Below, piece by piece: positions 3,068-10,228 of a DNA stretch of 64,000 nucleotides. The notes under the pieces are model-generated. The model searched no databases. It was not told the origin of the DNA and saw nothing but the letters and a program-made list of their open reading frames with translations. This DNA comes from Pseudomonas putida (lineage in GTDB: Bacteria > Pseudomonadota > Gammaproteobacteria > Pseudomonadales > Pseudomonadaceae). Location of the stretch: positions 248,001 through 312,000 of the forward strand of contig NZ_JANHLK010000002.1 in NCBI RefSeq assembly GCF_028682635.1, read 5' to 3'. How positions within the stretch are numbered: position 1 is the first letter of the stretch; each line of letters starts with the position of its first letter. The translations under genes and the position numbers were made by a program.

Positions 3068-3141
3068 CCCTGTAGGAGCTGCCGCAGGCTGCGATCAAAA
3101 ACAAAGTCAAAAGATCGCAGCCTGCGGCAGCTCCTACAGGG
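3068..3141. repeat. Paired REP palindrome, type TGTAGGAGCTGCCGCAGGC
   Basis: The two inverted arms begin at 3068 and end at 3141, each carrying TGTAGGAGCTGCCGCAGGC plus TGCGATC, with about 16 bases between them. It lies between atzF (ends 3149) and the diguanylate cyclase gene. It probably acts as an mRNA-stabilising or terminating hairpin. The same sequence type recurs at 56983. Confidence 0.9.
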
Positions 3142-3148
3142 GGCGGGG

Positions 3149-4927
3149 TCAGGCTAGAGTTTTGAGGTAGGCGCGCCATCCGCCCAGATGGCTGATGTCC
3201 ACCGCGCCCTCCAACCCATAGGCCTCACAGATGAATCCGCTTTCCCAGCGACCATCCGCCAGCTGCACCTTGCCCAGCCCCAACGGTGCCGGGATGCCGG
3301 TGAGGAACGAGCCCAGTTCGCTGCTTGGCAATTCCCAGACTTCCACGGCAATCGCCACGCCGCCGTGCTTGACCCGAACCATGCCCGGACGCAACGGCGG
3401 GCCACCGGCCAACGCATGCAGCTGATAATCGGCCGAGCTGAACGTGGTTTCCACCAGGCGCGCGCCGCGCTGTTTCAGCTGCCAGTTCAACGCCAGGCCA
3501 TCCAGGTGCGCGCCACAGACCACCAGCCGCGCGCGGTCATGGCGCGCAACGGCGGTCGGTGCCGGGGCCGCCAGTCCTTGCTGGCGCTGCAATCCATCGG
3601 CCAGGCTCAACAGGTACTGATCGGTGAACGCCCGCCCGAACAGGGTCACGCCCCAGGGCAAGCCGTTGTCCATGAACGCGCTGGGCACCGCGACGGCGGC
3701 GTAGTCGAGCAGGTTCATGAAGTTGGTGTAGTAGCCCAGTTCGGAGTTGCGCTGTACCGGTTCGGCGTCGAGTTCTGCCAGGGTGACCGGGCGGCCAATG
3801 GACGGCGTGACCACGCAATCGAGACCTTGCAGGGCTTTGTCGCACAAGGCTTTCAGCGCTTGCAGCCGGTATTGGGCGCGGAAGGTCTGCACGCCCGTGA
3901 CGGCCGGGGCCTTGGCCAGTACGGCGCGAATGACAGGCAGTACGGCCTCGGGATTGTGTTCCATCAATTCGCCGGCCACGCTGTAGCGTTCGGCCACCCA
4001 AGGGCCTTCGTAGAGCAAACGCGCCGCTTCGAGAAAGGGCGACAGGTCCAATTCCACCGCTTCGCCACCCAGGGCCTTGAGTCGATCGATCGCATCGGAA
4101 AATAGCTGCGGGCCTTGAGCGCAGCCAAAAAATTCCAGGTCTTGCGCACGGGGCACACCGAAACGGAACCCACGCACTGCGCCGAACGCCGAGCCGTCAT
4201 TCCACAGCGGATTAGCGCGGCTGTACTTGTCCCGTGGATCGAGTTTGGCGGTCAATGCGAGCAACTGACTCGCTTCCCGGGCGGTCGCGGTAAAGGTCGT
4301 CACGCAATCGAGCGTGCGACAGGCCGGCACCACGCCCGCGGTGGAAATCAGGCCCTTGGTGGCTTTCATCCCCACCAGATTGTTCAACGCCGCCGGCACG
4401 CGCCCGGAGCCCGCGGTGTCGGTGCCCAGGGCAAAACTCGCCACACCGAGCGCCACCGCCAGGGAAGAACCGGCGCTGGAACCGCCCGACGGGTATTCCG
4501 GCAACACGCTATTGGGGCACGCGCCATAGGGCGAGCGCGTGCCGTTGAGGCCGGTGGCGAATTGATCGAGGTTGGTCTTGCCCAGCGGCACGGCGCCCAG
4601 GGCCAGCAGTTGCTCGACGATGGTCGCCGAACGTTGCGGCACGTAGGCAAATGCCGGGCAGGCCGCCGTGGTCGGGATGCCCGCCAGGTCGATGTTGTCC
4701 TTGATCGCGAACGGCACGCCGTACAAAGGCAGGCTGTCGATGTCGCGGCCGTCGAGGGCGGCGAGGTAGGGTTCCAGTTCTTCGGCGCTGAGCAGATGGA
4801 TGAACAGGTGATAGTCCGGGTTCAGTGCCGCTGCTTTATCGCGCAGGCTTGATAGCAGTTGACGAGGCGTGGTGCTGCCGTCGCGGTAGGCGTTGCGCAG
4901 GGCGTCGAGTTGCAGATTGATGTTCAT
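3149..4927 (-). CDS. atzF: Allophanate hydrolase AtzF
   Basis: A 592-residue cytoplasmic enzyme that hydrolyses allophanate to ammonium and CO2, the last step of the guanidine (or urea amidolyase) route. The amidase-signature catalytic Lys, cis-Ser and Ser appear as Lys76 (AIKDN), Ser150 (SGGSSAGSS) and Ser174 (DTAGSGR), with the family's usual spacing. A C-terminal domain (about 470-592) is the extra domain of full-length allophanate hydrolases, which have two active regions. The ATG at 4927 lies 24 bases downstream of the carboxylase stop, so it is the last gene of the operon that begins at 12918. Confidence 0.95.
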   Translation of the reverse strand: MNINLQLDALRNAYRDGSTTPRQLLSSLRDKAAALNPDYHLFIHLLSAEELEPYLAALDGRDIDSLPLYGVPFAIKDNIDLAGIPTTAACPAFAYVPQRSATIVEQLLALGAVPLGKTNLDQFATGLNGTRSPYGACPNSVLPEYPSGGSSAGSSLAVALGVASFALGTDTAGSGRVPAALNNLVGMKATKGLISTAGVVPACRTLDCVTTFTATAREASQLLALTAKLDPRDKYSRANPLWNDGSAFGAVRGFRFGVPRAQDLEFFGCAQGPQLFSDAIDRLKALGGEAVELDLSPFLEAARLLYEGPWVAERYSVAGELMEHNPEAVLPVIRAVLAKAPAVTGVQTFRAQYRLQALKALCDKALQGLDCVVTPSIGRPVTLAELDAEPVQRNSELGYYTNFMNLLDYAAVAVPSAFMDNGLPWGVTLFGRAFTDQYLLSLADGLQRQQGLAAPAPTAVARHDRARLVVCGAHLDGLALNWQLKQRGARLVETTFSSADYQLHALAGGPPLRPGMVRVKHGGVAIAVEVWELPSSELGSFLTGIPAPLGLGKVQLADGRWESGFICEAYGLEGAVDISHLGGWRAYLKTLA

Positions 4928-4951: not shown

Positions 4952-7900
4952 TCAGTCGAGTTCCAGCACCACGACGCGTTGTCCGGCACGCACTGCCGAA
5001 CCCGGCTGCACGCGAATCTCGCGCACCACGCCGGCCATCGGCGCGAGCAGCGGGATTTCCATCTTCATCGACTCCAGGATCACCAGCACGTCACCGGCCT
5101 CGACGCGGCTGCCGGCCTGCACCTGGACTTGCCAGAGGTTGCCGGCGATGTGGCTGTCGACGCTCTGTTGACCGTTGGCCAGAGGGGCGTCTTCGCTCGC
5201 CTCTGGAACCAGCTCTTCGCTGTCGAAATGCGCCTGGCCGCTGGCGATCCAGCGCTCTCGTTCGGCGTTGAAGGCGCCTTGTTGTTGATCGCGAAAGGCC
5301 GCGATGGTCTCGGCTTCTTGCGCCAGAAACGCCTGGTAATCCGCCAGGTTCAGCTGACTGTGCTCGATGTTCAGATCGAAACGCCCGAGGGGGAAATTCC
5401 GGCGGATGCGCAGCAGTTCATCGGCGCTGACCGGGTAGAAACGGATCTGGTCGAAGAAGCGCAGCAGCCAGGGCTTACCATCGAACGCGGCGACTTCGCG
5501 ATAGCGATTCCACATCTGCAAAGTGCGTCCAACAAACTGATAACCGCCGGGGCCTTCCATGCCGTACACGCACATGTAGGCGCCACCGATGCCCACCGAA
5601 TTTTCCGCGGTCCAGGTGCGCGCCGGGTTGTACTTGGTGGTCACCAGGCGATGGCGCGGGTCGAGCGGAGTGGCGACCGGTGCGCCGAGGTAGACGTCAC
5701 CCAGGCCCATCACCAGGTAGCTGGCGTCGAACACCGTGCGTTGCACTTCATCGAGGTTCGGCAGGTCGTTGATGCGGCGGATGAACTCCAGGTTGCTCGG
5801 GCACCAGGGGGCGTCCTTGCGCACGGTGGTCATGTATTTTTCGATCGCCAACTGGCAGGCCGGGTCGTCCCAGGACAGCGGCAGGTGGACGATGCGCGAG
5901 GGCACCTGCAGGTCCTTGGCCGCGCACACGGCGTCCCATTCGCCGGCGACGATGCCGAGCAGGTCGGCGAGCGGAAGTTGCTCGGGTTGGTAGTGCACTT
6001 GCAGCGAGCGGATGCCCGGGGTCAGGTCGATTACACCGTGCAGGTGTTTGCTTTCCAGGGCTTGCATGAGGGCGTGGGCGCGAAAGCGCAGGACGAGGTC
6101 GAGTTCGGGGGCGCCGATTTCGAGAAGAAGATGAGTATCCCCCGACAGCCTCGCGACCAGTCGCGTATCCCCCTGGCCCAAATCCAGCACCACAGGCGAC
6201 ACAACCCCTTGTAGGAGCTGGCTTGCCAGCGAAGAAGTTGATGCGGTGTCTGTTAGGGCCTCTTCGCTGGCAAGCCAGCTCCTACAGGTTTCCCATTTGC
6301 AGGCGAGGGTGCGGGCGGTCTTGAGATCGACTGGGTGGAACTGCACCTTGTCCCCAGCCTTGAGCTGGCCCAGCTGCCAAAGATCCGCTTCGATCACCGT
6401 CACCGGGCACACGAAACCGCCCAGGCTTGGGCCGTCCGGCCCCAGGATCACCGGCATGTCACCGGTGAAATCCACAGCGCCGATGGCGTACGGATTGTCG
6501 TGGATATTCGAAGGGTGCAAACCGGCTTCACCACCGTCGGCACGCACCCACTCAGGCTTCGGCCCGATCAGGCGCACGCCGGTGCGGCTGGAGTTGAAGT
6601 GTACTTCCCACTGCGTGGCGAAGAAGGTGCCGATGTAGTTTTCGGTGAAGTATTCCGGTGCGCCGTGTGGGCCGTAGATCACGCGGATTTGCCGTACGGC
6701 GGGCAACTCTGCGATTTCAGGCAGTTGCGCACCGACGCTACGGTCGTTCAACGCCGGCAGATGCAACACATCACCCGCCCGTAAGGCACGACCGCCATGC
6801 CCACCAAACTGACCGAGGGTAAAGGTGCTTTTGCTCCCCAGATAATCCGGAACCTGCAAGCCACCGCGTACGCACAGATAGCTGCGCGCGCCAGCACCGG
6901 CGATCGTGCCGAGGCTCAAAGACGCACCGGACGGAACCAGTAGCGCGGTGTTCATCGGCACGGCTTCACCGTTCAGCGTCAACGGAATCATCGCACCGGT
7001 TACCGCCACCACCGCATCACAATTGAACCGCAGCAACGGCCCGCTCATGGTGATTTCCAGCGCTGCGGCGCCTTCGTCATTGCCCAGCAGGAGGTTGCCC
7101 AGGCGCAACGCACGGCTGTCCATCGGCCCCGATGGCGGCACGCCGACCGCCCAGTAGCCGAGGCGGCCGGGATAGTCCTGGACGCTGGTCTGGGTGCCGG
7201 CGCTGAGCACTTCGAAGGTGTTGGCCCGGTACTCCAGGCCTTCCAGGCAACGGGTCCACGGCTGGCCGCTGGCGAAGGGCGCATCGAGCAGAATCTGCCT
7301 CAGGTAGTCACGGTTGGTTTCCACCCCGTACAGCAGGCTGTCACCCAAGGCTTGATGCAGATCGGCAGCCGCTTGTTCGCGGGTCGATGCCCAGCTGATG
7401 ACCTTGGCGATCATCGGATCGAAGTAGGGCGGGATCTCGCAACCGGCCTCGACCCAGGTGTCGATGCGCAGCTGTTTGCCGTCGGCGACGGGAAAATCAA
7501 CGGCGGTCAGCAAGCCCGGACTCGGTTGAAAATCCCGTCCCGGATCCTCGGCATAAAGTCGGGCCTGAATCGCATGGCCGTCAGCTTTCAAACCTCGGCT
7601 CAACTCGCTCAACGGCGGCAGATCACCCGCGGCCAGTTGCACCATCCAGCGCACCAGGTCGACGCCCCAGACTTGCTCGGTGACGCCATGCTCCACCTGC
7701 AACCGGGTGTTCACTTCCAGGAAGTAGAAACGCTGGGCATCGCTGTCGAAGACGAACTCGACGGTGCCGGCGCTGCGGTAGTTCACCGCCTTGGCCAGCT
7801 TGATCGCCGCCGCGCACAGTTCATCGGCCATGCCCTCGGGCAGGTTCGGCGCCGGGGTTTCCTCGAGGACTTTCTGGTTGCGCCGCTGCACCGAACAGTC

Positions 7901-8578
7901 GCGCACGCCGAGGGCTATCACCTCTCCACGGCCGTCGCCAAATACCTGCACTTCCAGGTGCCGGGCGCGCTGGATGTACTTCTCGATGAACACGCCGGCG
8001 TCGCTGAAATTGTTCTGCCCGAGGCGCTTGACCGCCTCGAAGGATTCGCTCAATTCGGCCGCGCTGCGGCACACGCGCATGCCGATGCCGCCACCGCCGG
8101 CGGTGCTTTTGAGCATGACCGGGTAGCCGACTTGTTCGCCTGCGATCAAGGCGGCATCGAGGCTGTCGAGCAACTCGGTGCCTTCGAGCATCGGTACGCC
8201 GTGTTGTTTGGCCAGGGCGCGGGCGGTGTGCTTGAGGCCGAACACCCGCAGCTGTTCTGGCGTCGGGCCGATGAAGGCGATGTTGGCGGTTTCGCAGGCT
8301 TCGGCGAATGCGGCGTTTTCCGAGAGAAAGCCGTAGCCGGGGTGGATTGCGGTGGCGCCCGAGGCTTTGGCGATGGCGAGGATTTTTTCCACCGCGAGGT
8401 AGGTGCCAGCGGCCGCGCCTTCACCGAGGCAATGGGCCTCATCGGCTTGCAGGATGTGCAGGCTCGCGGCATCGGCTTCGGAATACACGGCAACACCTGC
8501 CACCTGCAGTTCGCGCAAGGTGCGCAGGATGCGGCAGGCGATGGCGCCACGGTTGGCAATCAGGACTTTTTCGAACAT
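4952..8578 (-). CDS. Biotin-dependent guanidine carboxylase (annotated family: urea carboxylase)
   Basis: A 1208-residue multidomain ligase. Residues 1-450 are the ATP-grasp biotin carboxylase (STAGGGGIGMRV; EVNTRLQVEHGVTE). About 455-760 is the AHS2/KipA half and about 795-1010 the AHS1/KipI half of the carboxyltransferase. The biotinyl domain ends the chain, with ESMKMEIP and biotinyl Lys1172. Its relatives carboxylate urea or guanidine. The guanidine riboswitch and paired DUF1989 genes in this operon favour guanidine, with carboxyguanidine as product. Asp578 (VPDYLGS) may match the residue reported to separate guanidine from urea enzymes. Residues 765-790 are encoded by an in-frame REP palindrome in the linker between the two carboxyltransferase halves. 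Confidence 0.88.
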   Translation of the reverse strand: MFEKVLIANRGAIACRILRTLRELQVAGVAVYSEADAASLHILQADEAHCLGEGAAAGTYLAVEKILAIAKASGATAIHPGYGFLSENAAFAEACETANIAFIGPTPEQLRVFGLKHTARALAKQHGVPMLEGTELLDSLDAALIAGEQVGYPVMLKSTAGGGGIGMRVCRSAAELSESFEAVKRLGQNNFSDAGVFIEKYIQRARHLEVQVFGDGRGEVIALGVRDCSVQRRNQKVLEETPAPNLPEGMADELCAAAIKLAKAVNYRSAGTVEFVFDSDAQRFYFLEVNTRLQVEHGVTEQVWGVDLVRWMVQLAAGDLPPLSELSRGLKADGHAIQARLYAEDPGRDFQPSPGLLTAVDFPVADGKQLRIDTWVEAGCEIPPYFDPMIAKVISWASTREQAAADLHQALGDSLLYGVETNRDYLRQILLDAPFASGQPWTRCLEGLEYRANTFEVLSAGTQTSVQDYPGRLGYWAVGVPPSGPMDSRALRLGNLLLGNDEGAAALEITMSGPLLRFNCDAVVAVTGAMIPLTLNGEAVPMNTALLVPSGASLSLGTIAGAGARSYLCVRGGLQVPDYLGSKSTFTLGQFGGHGGRALRAGDVLHLPALNDRSVGAQLPEIAELPAVRQIRVIYGPHGAPEYFTENYIGTFFATQWEVHFNSSRTGVRLIGPKPEWVRADGGEAGLHPSNIHDNPYAIGAVDFTGDMPVILGPDGPSLGGFVCPVTVIEADLWQLGQLKAGDKVQFHPVDLKTARTLACKWETCRSWLASEEALTDTASTSSLASQLLQGVVSPVVLDLGQGDTRLVARLSGDTHLLLEIGAPELDLVLRFRAHALMQALESKHLHGVIDLTPGIRSLQVHYQPEQLPLADLLGIVAGEWDAVCAAKDLQVPSRIVHLPLSWDDPACQLAIEKYMTTVRKDAPWCPSNLEFIRRINDLPNLDEVQRTVFDASYLVMGLGDVYLGAPVATPLDPRHRLVTTKYNPARTWTAENSVGIGGAYMCVYGMEGPGGYQFVGRTLQMWNRYREVAAFDGKPWLLRFFDQIRFYPVSADELLRIRRNFPLGRFDLNIEHSQLNLADYQAFLAQEAETIAAFRDQQQGAFNAERERWIASGQAHFDSEELVPEASEDAPLANGQQSVDSHIAGNLWQVQVQAGSRVEAGDVLVILESMKMEIPLLAPMAGVVREIRVQPGSAVRAGQRVVVLELD
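6210..6286. repeat. REP palindrome inserted in frame inside the carboxylase gene
   Basis: Arms TGTAGGAGCTGGCTTGCCAG and its complement flank a 77-base element that lies wholly within the reading frame of the carboxylase. It is the same REP type as those at 8681, 34104 and 61828, which are all intergenic. On the coding strand it is read as CRSWLASEEAL through SSLASQLLQ, with no stop codon, and joins the AHS2 and AHS1 domains. Confidence 0.93.
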
Positions 8579-8680: not shown

Positions 8681-8770
8681 CTGTAGGAGCTGGCTTGCCA
8701 GCGAAGGCGGAGTGTCAGTCACACCATTGTTGAATGTGCTGGCCCATTCGCTGGCGAGCCAGCTCCTACA
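8681..8770. repeat. Paired REP palindrome, type TGTAGGAGCTGGCTTGCCAG
   Basis: Inverted arms (left 8682-8708, right 8744-8770) carry GTAGGAGCTGGCTTGCCAGC, the right one with one GCAAG to GCGAG change. It occupies the 253-base gap between the second DUF1989 gene and the carboxylase gene, within the operon. It may set relative mRNA levels of the upstream transporter/deiminase genes and the downstream carboxylase. Confidence 0.88.
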
Positions 8771-8831: not shown

Positions 8832-9485
8832 TCAGTTCCATACCAGCAGCTCCGCAGGGGTCGGGTTGTAGGCGTTGCACGGGTTGTTCAGTTGCGGGCA
8901 GTTGGAGATCAGCACGATCACGTCCATCTCGGCCCGCAGGTCGACGTATTTGCCCGGTGCGGAAATCCCGTCTTCGAAGGTCAGCCCGCCGTCAGCCGTG
9001 ACCGGTACGTTCATGAAGAAATTGATGTTCGGCCCGATGTCGCCTTTGCCCAGGCGCCCGTCATGCACGCAGGCGCGCAGGTAGTTGTCGCGGCAGCTGT
9101 GCATGTGGCGTTTTTCCAGGGCGTAGCGCACGGTGTTGCTCTCCTGCGCGCAGGCGCCGCCGAGGGTGTCGTGACGGCCGCAGGTGTCGGCGACGATGGT
9201 CAGCATCGGTTTGCCGAGGTTGGAATACAGCACGCTGCCGGTGGTGAGGTACACGCTGTTCTGGCGGCGCAGGGTGCGCTGCACGTCGTAGCGTTCCTTG
9301 GGATTGGCGACGCTGTAGAACAGGGTGTCGACCGCCTGGTTGCCTTCCAGGTCGAGGATGCGCAGGGTCTGGCCGGCCTTGACCTCCATCAGCCAGGGTT
9401 CGCCGGCGGGGATGGTGGCGCGGTAGACCGCGGTTTCGGGTTGCCTGCTCGTAGTAACGTCAGCGGTAGCGATAGCGAGTGACAT
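8832..9485 (-). CDS. DUF1989 protein (UAAP2), probable carboxyguanidine deiminase subunit
   Basis: A 217-residue protein of the family long called urea-amidolyase-associated protein 2. Family members act in pairs as carboxyguanidine deiminase, turning carboxyguanidine into allophanate and ammonium between the carboxylase and allophanate hydrolase. The conserved block [13 protein letters not shown] (100-112) holds Cys102, His105, Asp106 and Cys112, the probable metal or catalytic set. NINFFMNV (153-160) is another family motif. It lies 11 bases after its paralogue. This copy keeps the His that the partner lacks, which suggests it carries the active site. Which of CgdA or CgdB it corresponds to I cannot say. 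Confidence 0.85.
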
Positions 9486-9496
9486 GGCAGCGATCC

Positions 9497-10228
9497 TCAG
9501 GCGAACAGACGGTCGGTATTGATGAAGCCGCGCTCGTTTTCCGGGCGCGAGGTGCGGCAGTGTTCGGCGACGCTGGGGTCGGCGTTCATCCAGCTGAGCT
9601 TCAAGGGTTTAGGTGCGTATTCCGGCGACGGGTCCATCGGATGCTGCAGGGCGGTGAGCACCACCAGGGTGTCCATCGGCGCGTACAACTCGATGTAGTC
9701 GCCAGCCTTGGAGTTGCCCTCGACGAAGTGAAAGCGCCCGGCGTCGTCGACGTTCACCCGGCTGAACAGGTTGAGGGTCATCAGCAGGTCGGACAGCCCC
9801 AACCCCCACTTGCCCAACTCCACCAGCAGGTTGTCCGTGCCGTTGCGGAAGAAGCCGTTGCGCAGTTCCTGATAGCGGCCCTGGCCATATTTTTCCGCCA
9901 CTTCTTCAGCACAGAGCACGCCGCCAAGGCTATCGCTCCAGCCGCAGGTGTCGGCGGTGATGGCGGCCAGCACGCGGCCCATGTCCGAGTACAGGCAATG
10001 GCCGGCGGTGAGCTTGGCGGTGTGTTGGCATTTGAGGCTATCGGGCAGGTTCAGGCGTTCGGTTTTTTCGTTGGCGTTGAGCAACGTCAGGCTGACGTTG
10101 GCGCCGCCGCGCAGGTCGGTCAGCCGCAACAGCTGGCCGCGTTTGAGCACGAAGGAACGGTGGCCGCCGCCGGGCAGCATTTCTTCGGCGAAGGGCGGGA
10201 ACATTTGAGTCGAGTCGGTCATTTTCAT
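9497..10228 (-). CDS. DUF1989 protein (UAAP1), probable carboxyguanidine deiminase partner subunit
   Basis: A 243-residue paralogue of the next gene (urea-amidolyase-associated protein 1). The conserved block here reads [11 protein letters not shown] (93-103), so the family Cys-x2-His has become Cys-x2-Ser at residue 98 while Asp99 stays. That suggests a structural or substrate-binding partner in a heteromeric deiminase. It starts six bases after the ATPase gene stop. Two in-frame ATGs are possible (10228 and 10222). The GAGGA sequence is three bases before the first and nine before the second, so 10222 is a fair alternative. Confidence 0.84.

Follow-up and report, generated by a model that had tools for sequence, protein, structure and literature searches.

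The REP doublet in the urea carboxylase gene

The window, that is the whole stretch of 64,000 nt of Pseudomonas putida DNA analyzed here (its own genome is labeled G000), carries the urea carboxylase gene uca on the minus strand (4952-8578). The 1208-aa open reading frame matches TIGR02712 over residues 2-1206 with 1903.5 bits (cut-off 1303.85). Beside uca lie the genes for allophanate hydrolase (3149-4927) and for the urea-amidolyase associated proteins UAAP2 (8832-9485) and UAAP1 (9497-10228). A domain search placed the CT_A_B (AHS2) domain at residues 478-749 (6332-7147, minus strand) and the CT_C_D (AHS1) domain at residues 810-1029 (5492-6151, minus strand). The structures 3va7 and 5i8i of the PDB align over nearly the whole protein, the alignment with 3va7 being poor at the linker between the two domains. 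A structure prediction for residues 450-1125, made with 23 close sequences, was too poor for use (mean pLDDT 50.8, pTM 0.39).

The linker contains a REP doublet (REPIN) at 6210-6286 (no strand assigned), which encodes residues 765-790 in frame. This 77-bp element was recognized as an inverted repeat and by its match to class PF3. Its two arms of 26 nt are 100% complementary and are separated by 25 nt; in mRNA sense the 3′ arm lies at 6210-6235 (plus strand) and the 5′ arm at 6261-6286 (minus strand). The PF3 class sequence GTAGGAGCYGGCTTGCCRGCGAA, with the 5′ GTAG/GTGG tetranucleotide, is matched exactly in both arms (class table of PMC3686654). The loop sequence AGACACCGCATCAACTTC (6234-6251, minus strand) is present in a single copy in the genome of the window when ≤1 mismatch is allowed (G000:C49:254234-254251). 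The uca reading frame runs across the element with neither stop nor frameshift. A preliminary description made from the window alone had proposed a full 77-base REP pair, in frame at residues 765-790 between the AHS2 and AHS1 halves of an otherwise complete carboxylase; the inverted repeat, the PF3 arms, the flanking domains, and the 1208-aa frame with its TIGR02712 match over residues 2-1206 bear out both parts of this proposal.

Two inverted REPs able to make one hairpin define a REPIN, and this is what was found at 6210-6286. The strict definition of a REP demands a place outside coding sequence, but the element lies inside uca. The RNA of 6190-6306 (minus strand) folds with −65.4 kcal/mol (z −6.86), and none of 200 shuffled sequences was equally stable. 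The PF3 arm core occurs 553 times in G000 with ≤1 mismatch and 491 times exactly (the two uca arms counted in), and the reversed pattern gave no match in either search. With 553 core copies against none in the control, the element belongs to a repeat family and does not owe its likeness to chance. Exact PF3 matches numbered 50, both uca arms included, in an 864-kb sample of the 6.76-Mb genome. Among the 142 REP clusters of that sample, uca alone had a strong coding signal on both sides by a codon score of our own. A second intragenic candidate in the sample (C24:38384) scored 0.06, against 0.22 for uca, and was rejected, as it looks like an antisense open reading frame. Rfam returned sub-threshold matches only (seven miRNA hairpin models and one isrG), which were taken as chance.

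Two further REP doublets lie in the neighborhood, one 5′ of uca (8683-8769, no strand assigned), which served as the intergenic comparison site, and one 3′ of the allophanate hydrolase gene (3072-3137, no strand assigned). The pair of genes thus has REP doublets on both sides and, with the coding one, there are three in this stretch.

Occupancy of the linker across Pseudomonas

Two sets of loci were compared. The search of 199 genomes of the genus gave, among the matches listed, 109 orthologous loci with at least 79% identity. The second set, with named genomes from GTDB, consisted of the best 80 of 548 related stretches and leans to close relatives. After removal of 22 named loci identical to the genus set around the linker, 167 distinct uca loci were retained; the paralogue L110 (56% identity) was excluded. 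The palindrome types T1-T12 were defined by us from the linkers themselves, and the cores of T1-T7 were then counted in genomes.

A typed palindrome was present in 141 of the 167 linkers, a remnant in 3, and none in 23. In the less selected genus set alone, the corresponding numbers were 85, 3, and 21 of 109. As a control on typing, T1-T11 were assigned to 135 of the 167 real linkers, to none of the 167 in each of five runs with codon-shuffled linkers, and to none of 167 upstream uca pieces of equal length. In 190 loci, duplicates included, the linkers (26,963 bp) had 232 strict REP heads and the rest of uca (661,200 bp) had one; strict heads were used since loose 8-9-mers also matched conserved coding words outside the linker (212 matches). 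Exact matches to published PF classes, 12 in all, were found in 83 of the 167 linkers.

The linker was open and in frame in 166 of the 167 loci, the exception being L107. At that locus (genome G176) a 146-nt linker with a stop separates open frames of 818 and 471 aa; the gene may be naturally split or a pseudogene, or the break may be an error of sequencing. Linker length ranged from 11 to 309 aa, with a median of 28 aa without and 47 aa with a REP. The preliminary description had expected an insertion that leaves a clean gap of 70-80 bases in close strains; this expectation failed, as nearly all close relatives carry a linker REP, and the REPs belong to many classes. The outcome it had set against insertion, linkers of one length with unrelated sequence in all orthologues, was likewise absent, given the range of 11-309 aa and the REP-type sequence in most loci.

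Loci devoid of a REP are spread over several lineages, with 10 presence/absence changes on the uca tree against a shuffle mean of 22. Unrelated palindrome families (T5, T6, and T10-T12) occupy the same place of the linker in distant lineages. In-frame tandem arrays were found in L106 (genome G094; 14 typed arms in the longest linker, 309 residues), L102 (G155; 5 arms), and L104 (G192; 4 arms). In another lineage, L075, L079, L081, and L105 have a different palindrome family (CCCTCTCCC...GGGAGAGGG) at the same linker.

Of 87 loci, 60 had typed REP cores at the intergenic site 5′ of uca, a site that also switches REP type between species. Its type was identical to that of the linker in 36 of the 60 (14 expected; none of 5000 shuffles as high). 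In the same 87 loci, 59 of 63 coding elements vs. 17 of 63 intergenic elements had a length divisible by three (Fisher p 3e-15), suggesting that the coding copy is an ordinary REP site filtered for frame.

Type turnover, arms and loops

Type changes were counted on a FastTree phylogeny of uca itself, a tree that recombination between species could distort. In the near group (L001-L040 and L111-L162 with types T1-T4 or T8), 78 loci gave 41 changes, when compared to a shuffle mean of 44.8 and a minimum of 37, so that neighbors share a type little above chance. Phylogenetic signal was present in the wider set of 167 loci (86 changes vs. 118 in shuffles, minimum 108), and in a wider set of 119 loci the count was also below every shuffle (59 vs. 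74.6, minimum 65).

The linker type was then compared with the REP population of the host in 80 of the 109 genus-set genomes, hand-picked after the linkers had been seen. An exact core was absent from 26 of the 80, which leaves 56 genome-type pairs in 54 genomes. Among the seven exact cores, the type of the genome's own linker ranked first in 38 pairs, second in 13, third in 4, and fourth in 1. None of 20,000 permutations, in a test that ignores relatedness, gave a host-match score as high, and the same result, again with relatedness ignored, was obtained with the 31 near-group pairs alone. The match has exceptions: G009 (1371 T1 copies), G071 (207 copies), and G143 (141 T2 copies) are rich in REPs and have none in uca, G032 has 271 T2 copies yet only a remnant in its linker, and the linker type of G154 is nearly absent from the rest of its genome.

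The two arms of a linker element agree with each other. Of 98 linkers with two arms, 85 had both arms of one type, where 15.5 were expected and 28 was the maximum in 2000 shuffles. Of 126 5′ heads (190 loci including duplicates and arrays), 121 shared one codon phase and 5 had a second; the second phase was found in distant lineages. When 71 genomic doublets were read in sense, 41 were open in the uca frame and 50 in another.

The loops behave differently from the arms in part of the material. Over 80 genomes, the loop AGACACCGCATCAACTTC (≤1 mismatch) had 13 matches. Ten lay in uca, where the loop is single-copy in those ten genomes and stands under T1 as well as T4 arms; the three others were in G039 (two) and G178 (one). 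Compared with sampled genomic doublet loops of its own genome, the uca loop of G125 had a best match of 0.59 (fraction no better, 0.03 of 39) and that of G019 a best match of 0.55 (0.00 of 34); in both genomes the loop is an outlier, and the arms are of the commonest genomic type. The loop of G000 is a mild outlier (0.72; 0.12 of 72), and that of G100, of the 87-nt class, is none (0.79; 0.33 of 33), so that some elements may be whole replacements.

Distance correlations were computed for 60 elements, those of 75 or 87 nt in length. In the 75-nt class, loop distances were unrelated to those of the gene flanks (r 0.07, a value reached in 1028 of 5000 permutations), and arm distances showed a weak relation to them (r 0.155, reached in 115 of 5000). 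Loops and arms were correlated with each other (r 0.27; 0 of 5000), which is compatible with some exchange of whole elements. In the 87-nt class the loops followed the flanks (r 0.53), whereas the arms did not (r 0.03). Among the 33 elements of 75 nt, 10 had the loop in the opposite orientation to the window's element, between like arms; such inversions could be a product of recombination between inverted arms. Taken together, the agreement of the arms, the fixed phase, the uca-private loop, and the outlier loops favor change in place within the near group.

Origin of the linker elements and known palindromic repeats

We consider it probable (at about 0.6) that the uca linker is an old, tolerated in-frame REP slot, occupied in most loci, and that its arms were likely rewritten in place to the REPs of the host. 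For the most part the hairpin ends correspond to repeats that are common in their own genome, likely because they were overwritten where they stand. The slot was probably colonized more than once, since unrelated palindrome families and a second phase are found in distant lineages. Within the near group, other genomic REPs would be copied non-reciprocally into the arms, with the element staying put, and the route may be gene conversion or a RAYT-assisted process; conversion is the likely reading of the sequence endpoints compared. Selection would mainly discard frame-breaking copies, because nearly all coding elements, but a minority of the intergenic ones, have lengths divisible by three. The 26 encoded residues may then be a tolerated spacer with no required sequence.

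A stronger form of this proposal, to which we give slightly less than an even chance, is that REPs have a lasting docking slot inside the gene, at the linker, and that the ruling REP class of the genome overwrites the encoded peptide in frame, one arm at a time. If so, one coding sequence would undergo concerted evolution with hundreds of repeats that do not code for protein, and would record shifts in REP/RAYT specificity.

The foremost alternative, which we regard as unlikely when compared to rewriting in place, is repeated fresh insertion: RAYT-driven REPINs would land again and again in a permissive linker, old copies would be deleted, and those that keep the frame would survive. Several of the above results are what this process would leave, namely the unrelated families T5, T6, and T10-T12 at one place in distant lineages, the second phase in 5 of 126 heads, the tandem arrays with 14 (L106) and 5 (L102) typed arms, partial remnants such as those of L084 and L088, the resemblance of the 87-nt loop of G100 to its genomic loops, and the loop-arm correlation of the 75-nt class. 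In the near group, however, the phase is fixed, although another frame is equally open; moreover, the 75-nt loop is almost confined to uca and stands under different arm types.

Also judged from sequence features, it is improbable that the hairpin was selected for a job, either ribosome pausing between the carboxyltransferase halves or mRNA stability, with arms that co-vary to keep the stem. The very stable stem, the 85 of 98 linkers with same-type arms, and the occupancy of 141 of 167 loci would agree with such selection. A necessary job is nevertheless unlikely, because 23 of the 167 loci have no hairpin at all; an inverted-repeat score of at least 12 was reached in only 72 of the 109 genus loci, the stems of L006, L010, and L013 are interrupted, and the adjoining intergenic site changes type too, so that no uca-specific job is needed. 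The hairpin may still have a modest effect. In L006, L010, and L013, a segment around TCGAATCGT, recognized by eye, is nested in one REP arm, in either orientation and in frame. Finally, an old coding sequence with a chance likeness to REPs, or an assembly error, has a negligible probability in view of the exact PF3 arms, the hundreds of genomic copies with none in controls, and the recurrence of the feature across many independent assemblies, some of them in a single contig.

GTAG-type REPs of fluorescent pseudomonads have been sorted into classes PF1-PF22 (in the part of PMC3686654 that deals with the classes). According to passages of PMC3686654 and PMC3116915, such REPs and REPINs share with the uca element the GTRG head, the palindromic core, the arrangement as an inverted doublet, the hundreds of copies, and a RAYT-type gene with REPs of the same class on its flanks. 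These passages treat them as extragenic or non-coding, whereas the uca doublet is read through in conserved coding sequence. Evolution of REPs by gene conversion is posed as a question in the title of a 1988 review (in the reference list of PMC3116915).

Intragenic REPs have been described in parts of PMC3733652 (2013), where units within open reading frames encode 20-30 residues and flexible linkers are proposed as tolerant places. Such units are counted there within the GTAG super-family, so that location does not define the group. In recB of two Xanthomonas species, different REPs lie at about the same site (PMC3733652, same parts). That site concerns two species; in contrast, 141 of the 167 loci have an occupied uca linker, and the class turnover there is matched to the host. 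The word urea is absent from the main text of PMC3733652, the part covered here, its gene-listing supplement standing apart.

The Rickettsia palindromic elements (RPE), as presented in passages of PMC2229807, are like the uca element in being palindromic repeats in frame within protein genes. Ogata and co-workers (2000) found them in 19 reading frames, and one such enzyme was active with its insert (cited in those passages). They are set apart by description, with 105-146 bp and in another bacterial group vs. 77 bp for the PF3 element, and the RPE passages of PMC2229807 make no mention of class switching at one site, unlike what was observed at the uca linker.

A literature search combining urea carboxylase, palindromic, and Pseudomonas gave nothing on the subject by title and start of abstract. 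Among the matches listed for REPs, REPINs, coding palindromes, and gene conversion there was no report of such an in-gene REP slot, although supplements may list single cases. Intragenic REPs and the tolerance of linkers are thus known; for a slot shared by many species with host-matched class turnover we found no report. The linker offers a natural experiment on the spread and homogenization of REPs, with one place occupied in most species, changes confined by the reading frame to steps of three bases, and a gene that gives its own tree, and gene conversion vs. transposition of REPs becomes directly testable. It also points to an enzyme in which a population of repeats, and apparently not the needs of the enzyme, determines the linker sequence.

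The REP classes beside orthologous RAYT genes differ between related strains, and orthogroup IV holds nine of these classes, PF8-PF16 (RAYT part of PMC3686654); such genes are therefore a ready source of changing REP populations in the host. In G000, a Y1_Tnp match (G000:C68:32901-33224; L232) marks a RAYT-type gene among 30 exact PF3 matches, so that a likely mobilizer of the PF3 class is present in this genome. The PF3 array at L232 has a period of ∼110 bp, and the arms within each doublet differ (CCGG vs. CTGG types). A second Y1_Tnp match (G000:C55:85124-85441; L233) has an internal TAA and is possibly a decayed RAYT.
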